Assembly: GCA_945906765.1 (NCBI GenBank)
Contig: CAMDRF010000010.1
Location: 1 to 49,563, forward strand
Source: Nitrosovibrio sp. Nv4
GTDB taxonomy: Bacteria; Pseudomonadota; Gammaproteobacteria; Burkholderiales; SG8-39
DNA length: 49,563 bases
Direction of reading: 5' to 3'
Below, in pieces: positions 34,799-38,634 of the stretch. Both the position numbers and the translations under genes were made by a program. Within the stretch, counting starts at the first letter, position 1. Every line of letters starts with the position of its first letter. The notes beneath the pieces were generated by a model that had not been told where the DNA came from, did not search any database, and was given only the letters and a program-made list of their open reading frames with translations.

Positions 34799-34809
34799 CT
34801 CTATGTAGT

Positions 34810-34828
34810 GAGAAGCATTATCATTAAG
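34810..34828 (+). promoter_or_regulatory. Fur-box-like sequence before the ferric-iron binding protein gene
   Basis: GAGAAGCATTATCATTAAG agrees with the 19-base Fur consensus GATAATGATWATCATTATC at 14 of 19 positions, best in the right half. It ends 25 bases before the GTG start of the iron-binding protein gene, a normal operator position. Confidence 0.55.
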
Positions 34829-34853: not shown

Positions 34854-35879
34854 GTGACTGTTATTAAAAAGACTTTCATAGTCTCTGCCCTGCTTTTCTC
34901 GGCTGCGGCCTTCGCGCAAGACAATAAAGTGCTGAACCTTTACTCGTCGCGCCATTACCAGACGGACGAGGCGCTTTACGCCAATTTCACCAAGCAGACC
35001 GGCATCAAGATCAACCGCATCGAAGCCGGCGAAGACCCGCTGATCGAGCGCATCCGCAACGAAGGCGCGCGCAGCCCGGCCGACGTGCTGGTGACGGTGG
35101 ATGCGGGCCGCCTGTGGCGCGCCGAGCAGCTCGGCTTCTTCCAGCCGGTGAAATCGGCGCTGCTCGATGCGCGCATCCCGGCGAGCTACCGCGAGCCGAG
35201 CGGGCTCTGGTTCGGCTTCTCGCTGCGCGCACGCCTGATTGCGTACAACAAAGCCAAGGTGAAGGCCGCCGAACTACCCACCTATGAATCGCTCGCCGAG
35301 CCGAAGTGGAAGGGCCGCATCTGCATGCGCTCCTCCACCAACATGTACAACCTCTCCCTGCTGAGTGCGATGATCGACCATCTCGGCGAGCAGAAGGCGC
35401 AGGCCTGGGCGCAGGCGGTGCGCGACAACCTTGCGCGTGATCCCAGGGGCGGGGACACCGACCAGTTGAAGAGCGTGGCCGCGGGCGAATGCGACGTCAC
35501 GATCTCGAACCAGTACTACTATGCGCGCCTGCTGCGCTCGGGCAAGCCCGATGAACGGGAAATCGGGGAAAAACTCGGAGTGGTGTTTCCGAACCAGTCG
35601 AGCTGGGGCACGCACGTCAACATCTCGGGCGCCGGCGTGATGAAGCACGCGCCGAACCGGGAAGCGGCGGTGAAGTTCCTCGAGTACCTCGCCAGCGACG
35701 ACGCACAGCGCTATTTCGCCGACGGCAACAACGAGTGGCCGGCGGTGGCGGGCGTGAAGGTGGACAACCCCGCGCTCGCCTCGCTCGGCGCCTTCAGGCA
35801 GGACGCGCTGAACGTCGCGGTGCTCGGCCGCAACCAGCCGGGCGCGCAGAAAATCTACGACCGGGTGGCTTGGAAGTAG
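34854..35879 (+). CDS. fbpA: Ferric-iron ABC transporter periplasmic binding protein
   Basis: A FbpA/FutA-type periplasmic iron-binding protein of 341 residues. A signal peptide (KKTFIVSALLFSAAAFA) is followed by LNLYSSRHYQTDEALY, the typical N-terminal YSxRHY iron-ligand region. Later YY tyrosines (SNQYYYARLL) are the usual Fe(III) ligands. The start is GTG at 34854; a Fur-like box lies just upstream. The 3' end overlaps the convergent permease gene by 25 bases, which is unusual for an importer operon. Confidence 0.93.
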   Translation: MTVIKKTFIVSALLFSAAAFAQDNKVLNLYSSRHYQTDEALYANFTKQTGIKINRIEAGEDPLIERIRNEGARSPADVLVTVDAGRLWRAEQLGFFQPVKSALLDARIPASYREPSGLWFGFSLRARLIAYNKAKVKAAELPTYESLAEPKWKGRICMRSSTNMYNLSLLSAMIDHLGEQKAQAWAQAVRDNLARDPRGGDTDQLKSVAAGECDVTISNQYYYARLLRSGKPDEREIGEKLGVVFPNQSSWGTHVNISGAGVMKHAPNREAAVKFLEYLASDDAQRYFADGNNEWPAVAGVKVDNPALASLGAFRQDALNVAVLGRNQPGAQKIYDRVAWK

Positions 35880-37495
35880 CGCTTCACGACGATCAGCACC
35901 GGTGCCAGGCCAATCGCGACAATCACCAGCGAAGGCACCGCGGCCTCCGCCAGGCGCTCGTCCTTGGCCAGGTTGTAGGCCTCGATGGCGAGCGTGTCGA
36001 AATTGAAGGGACGCAGGGCAAAGGTCGCCGGCAATTCCTTCATCACGTCTACGAACAGGAGCAGCGCCGCGCTCGCCAGGCTGGAGGCGAGCAGCGGCAC
36101 GTGCACGCGCACCAGCGTCCCGGCGGGCGTTGCACCGAGACTGCGTGCCGCGTCATCCATGCGCGGCGTGACCTTGGCGAGTCCCGCCTCGACAGTCTGC
36201 AGCGCCACCGCGAGGAAGCGCACCAGGTACGCATATACCAGCGCGACGATAGTGCCGGTCAACAGCAAGCCGGGTTTCACGCCGAACGCCGTTTCGATGC
36301 CACCGGCGATCCAGTTGTCGAGCCGTCCGAGGGGCACCAGCACCCCGATGGCGATCACGGCACCAGGAATGGCATAGCCGAGCGCGGCGGCGCGGTTCGC
36401 CCATGCAACGACGTTGGCCTGACGACCGCGCGAAAGGCGCGCCGCGTAGGCCATGGCGGTCGCGAGCAGCACGCCCGCGGCAGCCGCGATCCCCGCCAGC
36501 GTGAAGCTGTTGCCGATCAGCGCCGGCAGGCGCGCACTCCATCGTGCGTCCGGGTCGGACCAGGCGAGGTGCACCAGCAGCCCCACAGGCAGCAGGAACC
36601 CGAGCAGTACCGGCGCGGCACAGGCCGCGAATGCCAGCGCAGCGGCCGTGCCCGAGAGGCGCTGCGGCGGCGAGCGCTTGCTCAAGGTACTCGCATACGC
36701 CGCGCGGCCGCGGCTGGCGCGCTCCAGCGCGAGGACCACGAATACGAACGCGAGCAGGCACACCGACAACTGGCCGGCCGCGGCGCTGTCGCCCATGGAC
36801 AGCCAGGCCTTGAAGATGCCGGTGGTGAACACCTCCAGCGCAAAGTACGAAACGGTGCCGAAATCAGCGAGCGTTTCCATGAACGCGAGCGCGGCGCCCG
36901 CCGCGACCGCGGGCCGCGCGATCGGCAGCGCGACGCGCCAGAAACTGCCCCAGGCCGAATAGCCGGCGAGGCGCCCCGCCTCCAGCGCACTGCGCGAAAC
37001 GTCGAGAAACGCCGTGCGCGCAAGCAGGTAGACATAGGGATAGAGCGCGAACGACAGCATCGCCGCCGCGCCCGGGATCGAGCGGATTTCGGGGAACCAG
37101 TATTCGCGCGCCTGCCACCCGGTCGCCACACGCAGAGCGCTCTGCACCGGTCCGGTGAATTGCAGCCAATCGGTATACGCGTACGCCATGACGTAAGCCG
37201 GCATCGCGAGCGGCAGCACCAGCGCCCACTCGAGCACGCGCTGCGCCGGAAAACGGTACGCGGTGACCAGCCAGGCCGAAAGCACACCAATGGAAAGCAC
37301 CCCGGCCGCAACGCAGGCAACCAGCAGCGCGGTATTCAGGACGTAGGTGCCGAGCAAGGTGCGCGCAAGATGTGCCCAGGTTTCGCTTGCCGGGCCAAGC
37401 ACGCTGGCGACGACCGCCAGGATCGGCAGCAGGATCAACGCTGCGGCGCCGAGCGAGATGGCGGATAAAAATACAACTCTTTGAAAATAAAGCAC
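35855..37495 (-). CDS. fbpB: Ferric-iron ABC transporter permease (two-domain FbpB type)
   Basis: An inner-membrane permease of about 546 residues with two fused BPD_transp_1 halves, each ending in an EAA-type loop (EAGRLAGYSAWGSFWRVALP in the first half, DDAARSLGATPAGTLVRVHVP in the second). About 12 membrane helices are visible. The ORF track uses a TTG at 37510, which lies within a perfect palindrome; the GTG at 37495 keeps the palindrome upstream and still covers the first helix, so I prefer it, but neither has good spacing to a ribosome-binding site. The gene points opposite to its partners on both sides. Confidence 0.9.
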   Translation of the reverse strand: MLYFQRVVFLSAISLGAAALILLPILAVVASVLGPASETWAHLARTLLGTYVLNTALLVACVAAGVLSIGVLSAWLVTAYRFPAQRVLEWALVLPLAMPAYVMAYAYTDWLQFTGPVQSALRVATGWQAREYWFPEIRSIPGAAAMLSFALYPYVYLLARTAFLDVSRSALEAGRLAGYSAWGSFWRVALPIARPAVAAGAALAFMETLADFGTVSYFALEVFTTGIFKAWLSMGDSAAAGQLSVCLLAFVFVVLALERASRGRAAYASTLSKRSPPQRLSGTAAALAFAACAAPVLLGFLLPVGLLVHLAWSDPDARWSARLPALIGNSFTLAGIAAAAGVLLATAMAYAARLSRGRQANVVAWANRAAALGYAIPGAVIAIGVLVPLGRLDNWIAGGIETAFGVKPGLLLTGTIVALVYAYLVRFLAVALQTVEAGLAKVTPRMDDAARSLGATPAGTLVRVHVPLLASSLASAALLLFVDVMKELPATFALRPFNFDTLAIEAYNLAKDERLAEAAVPSLVIVAIGLAPVLIVVKRYFQATRS

Positions 37496-37500
37496 TCCTG

Positions 37501-37529
37501 ATTCTAACAAGAATAATTCTTGTTAGAAT
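37501..37529. promoter_or_regulatory. Perfect 29-bp palindrome between iron permease and ATPase genes
   Basis: ATTCTAACAAGAAT, one central A, then the exact reverse complement: two 14-base arms without mismatch. Each outer end contains TAGAAT (plus strand 37524-37529, minus strand 37506-37501), five of six to the -10 consensus and seven or five bases from the start codons of the two divergent genes. The palindrome may thus be an operator with both -10 boxes built in. The central 19 bases match the Fur consensus only at about 11 positions, so another regulator is possible. Confidence 0.65.
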
Positions 37530-37536
37530 AATTGAC

Positions 37537-38634
37537 ATGCAACCGCTGCTGGACATTCAGGATCTGCACCACGCCTATCAGGGAAAGCTTGGCGACCCCG
37601 AGGCAGTACGAGGCTTGTCGTTTGCCCTTGCGCGTGGCGTGATCGGCTGCTTGCTGGGACCCAGCGGCTGCGGCAAGACCACGGTGCTGCGCTGCATCGC
37701 GGGGTTCGAGACGCCGAGCGCCGGGCGTATCCTGCTCAACGGCGTCGTGGTCTCCTCGGCGCAGACCAGCCTGCCGCCGGAGAAACGGCGCGTCGGCATG
37801 GTGTTCCAGGAGCACGCACTGTTTCCGCACCTGACGGCCGCGAGCAATATTGGATTTGGTTTTTCGAATAAGAAAGAAACCCAAAGCCGCGTGCAGGAAC
37901 TCGCCACGCTCACCGGCATTGCCGACCTGCTGCAAAAATACCCGCATGAACTCTCCGGCGGCCAGCAGCAACGCGTCGCGCTCGCGCGCGCGCTCGCGCC
38001 GCGCCCCGAACTGCTGCTGCTCGACGAACCGTTCTCCAATCTCGATACCGGCCTGCGCGAGCGCCTCTCGCACGAATTGCGCGACATCATCAAGGCGTCC
38101 GGCGCAACGGCGATACTCGTCACCCACGACCAGTACGAGGCGTTCGCGATGGCCGACGAGATCGGCGTCCTGCACCAAGGCCGCCTCGAGCAGTGGGACA
38201 CGGCGTACAACCTGTACCACCGCCCGGCCAACCGTTTCGTCGCCGACTTTGTCGGCCAGGGCGTATTCCTCCCGGGGAAGGTACTGAGTCCAAAGCAGGT
38301 GGAGATCGAGCTCGGGGTACTGGACGGCGCCATTCCCGGCGCCTGCCAGATCGGCTGCGACGCCTGCGGCAAGGGCTGCCTCGCCGACGTGCTGCTGCGA
38401 CCCGACGACGTGATCCATGACGATTCGGCGCCTACCCAGGCCGAGGTCGTGCACAAAGCCTTCCGTGGCGCGGAGATCCTGTACACGCTCAAGCTGGAGA
38501 GCGGCAGACAGGTGCTCGCGCTGGTGCCCAGCCACCACAACCACGCGCTGGGCGAGCGCATCGGCATCCGGCTCGACGTCGACCACGTGGTCGCGTTCGC
38601 GCCGCAGGCGCGCCCGCCGGCGCCGCAGGGCTAA
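37537..38634 (+). CDS. fbpC: Ferric-iron ABC transporter ATPase with Cys-rich regulatory domain
   Basis: The 365-residue ATPase of a FbpABC-type importer. Walker A GPSGCGKTT is near residues 44-52, signature LSGGQQQR near 145-152, Walker B LLLLDEPFSNLD, and the H-loop VTHDQYEA. The C-terminal OB/TOBE regulatory domain contains four cysteines at about 270, 274, 277 and 281 (CQIGCDACGKGC), a C-x3-C-x2-C-x3-C cluster that could bind iron or an iron-sulfur cluster. The ORF track starts upstream at 37372; the ATG at 37537 (MQPLLDIQDL) is the family start. Confidence 0.92.
   Translation: MQPLLDIQDLHHAYQGKLGDPEAVRGLSFALARGVIGCLLGPSGCGKTTVLRCIAGFETPSAGRILLNGVVVSSAQTSLPPEKRRVGMVFQEHALFPHLTAASNIGFGFSNKKETQSRVQELATLTGIADLLQKYPHELSGGQQQRVALARALAPRPELLLLDEPFSNLDTGLRERLSHELRDIIKASGATAILVTHDQYEAFAMADEIGVLHQGRLEQWDTAYNLYHRPANRFVADFVGQGVFLPGKVLSPKQVEIELGVLDGAIPGACQIGCDACGKGCLADVLLRPDDVIHDDSAPTQAEVVHKAFRGAEILYTLKLESGRQVLALVPSHHNHALGERIGIRLDVDHVVAFAPQARPPAPQG

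Follow-up and report, generated by a model that had tools for sequence, protein, structure and literature searches.

A perfect 29-bp palindrome as the putative divergent promoter-operator of a ferric-iron transporter

A permease gene and an ATPase gene of an iron transporter start back to back in the window (the whole 49,563-nt stretch of DNA analysed here), and a perfect 29-bp palindrome is placed between their start codons. The locus raises the question of what this symmetry reflects, namely one large binding site for one protein or several smaller elements arranged as mirror images. The palindrome had been noticed in a first-pass annotation, and both its position (Table 1) and its sequence proved exact: it reads ATTCTAACAAGAAT-A-ATTCTTGTTAGAAT. 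Its comparison with related loci suggests that it is probably the divergent promoter-operator of a FutABC/FbpABC-type ferric-iron transporter, with promoter activity and Fur binding predicted from the sequence.

Table 1. Features of the transporter locus (window coordinates; a dot marks features without strand).
Feature	Position	Strand	Details
Canonical Fur box AGTGAGAAGCATTATCATT before the substrate-binding-protein gene	34807..34825	.	2 mismatches to AATGANAATNATTNTCATT; kept at that promoter throughout the genus
Gene of the likely ferric-iron substrate-binding protein, 341 aa, FutA-like, third transporter part	34854..35879	+	nearest solved relatives 6g7n, 2pt1, 2voz
Permease gene, 546 aa, fused FbpB/FutB-type	35855..37495	-	start GTG 37495-37493; predicted leaderless
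Palindrome, 29 bp, perfect, 14-1-14	37501..37529	.	single copy in genome; 25/29 columns invariant in 10 species
Predicted extended -10 TGTTAGAAT of the permease gene	37501..37509	-	invariant in genus; TGTTAAAAT or TGTTAGAAT in sister genera
Inner 19-bp dyad AACAAGAATAATTCTTGTT, diverged Fur box (9-1-9), putative Fur operator	37506..37524	.	12/18 to AATGATAATNATTATCATT; kept where the outer hexamer is missing
Predicted extended -10 TGTTAGAAT of the ATPase gene	37521..37529	+	variants in relatives TGATAGAAT, TGTTATAAT, TGCTACAAT, all retaining TGnTAnnnT
ATPase gene, 365 aa, FbpC/FutC-type	37537..38634	+	start ATG 37537; predicted leaderless

The transporter genes and the palindrome between them

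The substrate-binding protein has as its best solved relatives a family 1 solute-binding protein (6g7n) and two iron-binding proteins (2pt1 and 2voz), which we take to be FutA-type. The matches to the latter two, both ferric-binding, are 2e-111 and 8e-111, respectively, which places the transporter in the FutABC/FbpABC class. This kinship makes ferric iron the likely cargo. The gene of the substrate-binding protein and that of the permease converge, their 3' ends overlapping by 25 nt (35855-35879); the overlap is present in most members of the genus and absent from two loci (L010 and L011). Cyanobacterial permeases (L055, L056, L061 and L062) are about 49-53% identical to that of the window, and desulfobacterial and verrucomicrobial ones only 31-37%. 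The search of plasmids for the permease returned distant relatives only.

The start of the permease gene was assigned to GTG 37495. The TTG at 37510, within the palindrome, was rejected since three relatives (L009, L010 and L011) have stop codons in the extension that it would add. A start codon at the 37495 position is kept in relatives as ATG or GTG (GTG in the window, ATG in L006 and L012).

Repeats and -10-like hexamers were surveyed in 61 stretches of the same genome (G000; the window and L155-L214), 1.25 Mb in all. They contain five perfect inverted repeats with arms of at least 14 bp and spacers of 0-10, and the palindrome is the sole AT-rich one among them (21% GC). By our estimate, about 0.006 repeats with 14-bp arms at these spacers are expected by chance in 49.6 kb at 64% GC. 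The genome-wide search for half-sites, which had been suggested along with the original description, was run: the half-site ATTCTAACAAGAAT occurs at one place only in the 3.1-Mb genome, and the 17-bp core ACAAGAATNATTCTTGT has no second copy there even with up to three mismatches allowed. As nothing was found beyond the locus, no separate regulon can be defined by this search. On different contigs (L186 near 6310 and L197 near 805) there is a pair of almost identical inverted repeats whose perfect arms, GAAAATCAGGGACAGACCACGTTTTC, measure 26 bp; they are perhaps a REP-like mobile repeat.

The outer arms as probable -10 elements of putatively leaderless genes

The proposal of the first-pass annotation that the terminal TAGAAT of each arm is the -10 box of the gene it faces is supported by the spacing. 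The hexamer lies 5 nt from the GTG of the permease gene and 7 nt from the ATG of the ATPase gene. At the permease side the distance is exactly 5 nt in every locus of the genus and of the sister genera, and at the ATPase side it is 5-7 nt within the genus and 5-9 nt in 43 of the 62 divergent loci, even where the hexamer is far from the palindrome core. The two hexamers are separated by exactly 17 bp, with the -35 position of each promoter occupied by the -10 of the other (ATTCTA, matching TTGACA in two of six bases). This leaves no classical -35 boxes, and since neither hexamer resembles TTGACA both promoters are read as extended -10 promoters. Another candidate, a sigma-70 site CTAACA-17-AATAAT, was rejected, as its AATAAT needs bases after the palindrome that are missing in relatives.

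Measured from the first T of the -10 hexamer, the start codons are 11 bp (permease) and 13 bp (ATPase) away, in keeping with the leaderless-gene signature, TANNNT some 10-12 bp before the start codon (PMC3160421), and with no room for a Shine-Dalgarno sequence. With start codons so close behind the hexamers, neither mRNA is expected to carry a leader. Among betaproteobacteria, mapped transcripts of this type are known from Burkholderia cenocepacia (PMC4603805) and Cupriavidus metallidurans (PMC7563307). Throughout the surveyed 1.25 Mb, hexamers with at least five of six matches to TATAAT peak 5-9 nt before the starts of long open reading frames (23, where other 5-nt bins usually have 1-6 and one has 13). 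The peak, with its mode at 6 nt, suggests that leaderless genes are frequent in this uncultured betaproteobacterium. The start of its fur gene (L034:1888-1905) is preceded on its own strand by CTATAATGATAACGG, which is both -10-like and Fur-half-site-like and lies just before the ATG. It is possible that the fur gene is leaderless and self-regulated as well.

Conservation of the palindrome was followed in genomes that are mostly those of uncultured organisms (MAGs). Across ten species of the genus it is 94% identical, compared with 60% for 4-fold degenerate sites in the permease gene. Variation is limited to four columns: two on the ATPase side, at the third base of the -10 hexamer and at the n of the TGn, and two in the middle, at the centre and at a base next to it. 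In none of the ten species does a change that breaks the symmetry come with a change of the mirror base, and substitutions in the arms break the symmetry yet retain TGnTAnnnT. Judged by these variable columns and the lack of mirror co-variation, the outer arms look selected for TGnTAnnnT and not for symmetry; they appear to be maintained as promoter elements rather than as an operator, a point that the first-pass annotation had missed. The TG of the extended -10 also belongs to the dyad, so its conservation is confounded. The permease is encoded in 11 of the 13 genomes of the genus, and all 11 carry the palindrome, perfect or with one or two mismatched pairs (in G001 on a separate contig, L132). 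Absence of the palindrome from relatives with the same gene arrangement, named at the outset as the result that would speak against it, was looked for, and every same-genus genome with divergent starts was found to keep it. The other two genomes (G005 and G010, 96% and 90% complete) are without the permease gene, which suggests loss of the transporter.

The inner dyad, its probable regulator and its history

The palindrome had been described as only a weak match to the Fur consensus, unlike the site before the substrate-binding-protein gene. This description holds: the core AACAAGAATNATTCTTGTT agrees with the 9-1-9 consensus at 12 of 18 positions (p about 0.07 against dinucleotide shuffles), versus only two mismatches at the other site. 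The canonical form of the Fur box is AATGAGAATGATTCTCATT. The further suggestion that a second regulator may be involved finds no support in the comparison with relatives. The orthologous sites there are canonical Fur boxes with up to 16 of 18 matches, such as AATGAGAATTATAATCATT in Noviherbaspirillum and AATGGGAATCATTATCATT in L131. Before the substrate-binding-protein gene of two genomes there are hybrid sites, in which a canonical half and a variant half keep the same register (AGTGATAATGATTCTTGTT and AATGCGAATGATTCTTGTT; G020 and G050); other matches to the hybrid pattern within the family are followed by genes for FeoB, FTR1 and cupredoxin. The genome encodes a single protein of the Fur family (PF01475), and this is a Fur equivalog with a GLATVYR motif, scoring 181.8 bits with NF006999 against a cut-off of 146 (NCBIfam). 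Orthologous boxes, hybrid sites and the sole Fur-family protein together indicate that the inner dyad is quite likely a Fur operator; the case is a comparative one, in which the consensus score is not decisive. An Irr/ICE box was considered too: no Irr is encoded in the genome, whose sole Fur-family protein, at 53 bits, stays below the Irr cut-off of 170.

The order in which the palindrome was assembled can be read from the related loci. In five of them (L012, L014, L015, L019 and L043) the ATPase -10 (TATAAT) sits further out, and the 19-bp core is kept together with the permease-side TAnAAT, the mirror hexamer being missing. The core remains a dyad where one or both -10 elements sit elsewhere (L014, L020, L128 and L129). 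In the maximum-likelihood tree of the permease the loci with the palindrome form one clade (100/99), nested within loci that have only the permease-side -10, which are in turn nested within loci with a detached dyad. This nesting shows the palindrome to be derived, with first one -10 and then the other attached to an older dyad; the order read from the tree is the putative Fur box, the permease -10 and finally the ATPase -10. Outside the genus the composite pattern was found in none of the 399 genomes of the order. The loci thus make up an ordered natural series for how a fully symmetric regulated promoter arose, with the operator alone, with one -10 added and with the operator between two -10s.

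All this makes it probable that the palindrome is a composite, with a diverged Fur box inside and two outward-facing -10 elements outside. The perfect symmetry can accordingly be expected, with good but not full confidence, to come from two identical -10 elements around a symmetric operator and not from one protein reading 29 bp. A perfect palindrome can in this way stem from a pair of promoters that point outward from a shared operator and need not be a single large binding site.

The opposite reading, a dedicated dimeric regulator other than Fur that reads the whole 29 bp and controls both genes, with Fur acting only at the substrate-binding-protein promoter, has some points on its side. Fur Arg57 contacts a G at position -6 in solved Fur-DNA complexes (PMC4506495), and this G is absent from both half-sites, which have A at 37509 and its mirror position. 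The motif is also almost confined to the locus, which holds 22 of the 23 places with at most one mismatch to the exact variant in 98 genomes (the 23rd is a chance match at the start of dnaN), and the motif is consistently unlike the canonical Fur box that the same genomes have upstream of the substrate-binding-protein gene. Such a regulator is nevertheless unlikely, as the site is orthologous to the canonical Fur boxes of distant relatives and is linked to them by the hybrid sites, and the outer arms vary or vanish as -10 elements do, unlike the halves of an operator. Besides, no regulator gene was seen among the open reading frames around the locus, and the genome is without a DtxR/MntR-type repressor and has one clear Rrf2-family protein. 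Fur operators are degenerate and are read partly by shape (PMC4506495).

Less probable still is an unregulated symmetric bidirectional promoter whose central dyad would merely follow from the two facing extended -10s and their spacers. The -10 elements are indeed well supported and prokaryotes commonly have bidirectional promoters (PMC12825309), but the dyad core persists in the loci mentioned above where the -10 elements sit elsewhere, which argues for a function of its own. As for a repeat element, a transcription terminator or an RNA hairpin, the perfect inverted repeat is what would recall them, and they are improbable in the extreme: the single copy in the genome speaks against a repeat family, no terminator-like site was found, the palindrome lies upstream of both predicted start sites and so in neither mRNA, and the spacing between hexamers and start codons is fixed.

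Proposed mode of action and known systems

For a Fur-controlled divergent promoter the following mode of action can be proposed. Each strand would have one sigma-70 extended -10 element, TGTTAGAAT, and the pair would stand back to back around a diverged Fur box of 17-19 bp. When iron is present, Fe-Fur on the central dyad would block RNA polymerase at both promoters simultaneously; when iron is scarce, both would be freed and the polymerase would enter in one orientation or the other. Because the polymerase footprints overlap, the two promoters would presumably not be occupied together. The two mRNAs would begin at the start codons or a few bases from them. Joint control of both directions through one dyad, as had been put forward in the first-pass annotation, is supported as a reading, with Fur as the predicted ligand.

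Tentatively, and with somewhat less than even confidence, the locus may be regarded as a minimal symmetric switch. The 41 bp between the start codons would then hold two leaderless extended -10 promoters and a shared operator, built stepwise on a Fur dyad; repression would be equal in both directions and the polymerase would choose one transporter gene at a time. The Fur of this lineage would accept the half-site ATTCTTGTT, which would also supply the TG of the extended -10. Apart from this reading, the locus offers a clean system in which to test how polymerases compete and how leaderless mRNAs are translated under a single repressor, a subject described as hardly studied (PMC12825309).

The site shares with the Fur box (19-bp 9-1-9 or overlapping 7-1-7) the dyad geometry, the central ATNAT, an iron-transport target and the overlap with a promoter. 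It differs in its half-site, AACAAGAAT instead of AATGATAAT or AATGAGAAT, in the lack of the Arg57-contacted G and in having -10 hexamers on both flanks. Leaderless genes of the type described in PMC3160421 are matched in the distance from -10 to start and in the genome-wide peak at that distance; unlike them, the present pair stands back to back on one operator and one of its members starts with GTG. In the prokaryotic bidirectional promoters of Warman, Grainger and colleagues the -10 is shared and the divergent start sites are 10, 18 or 23 bp apart (PMC12825309). Common to these and to the present site are pseudo-symmetric DNA that can engage RNA polymerase either way and the mutual occlusion expected from it. 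In contrast, the window has two separate -10 hexamers with a putative repressor dyad between them and predicted start sites about 42 bp apart, which is outside the shared -10 definition. Though it falls outside that definition, the site, as predicted from its sequence, would work in the manner of a Fur-controlled divergent promoter and also in that of a bidirectional one.
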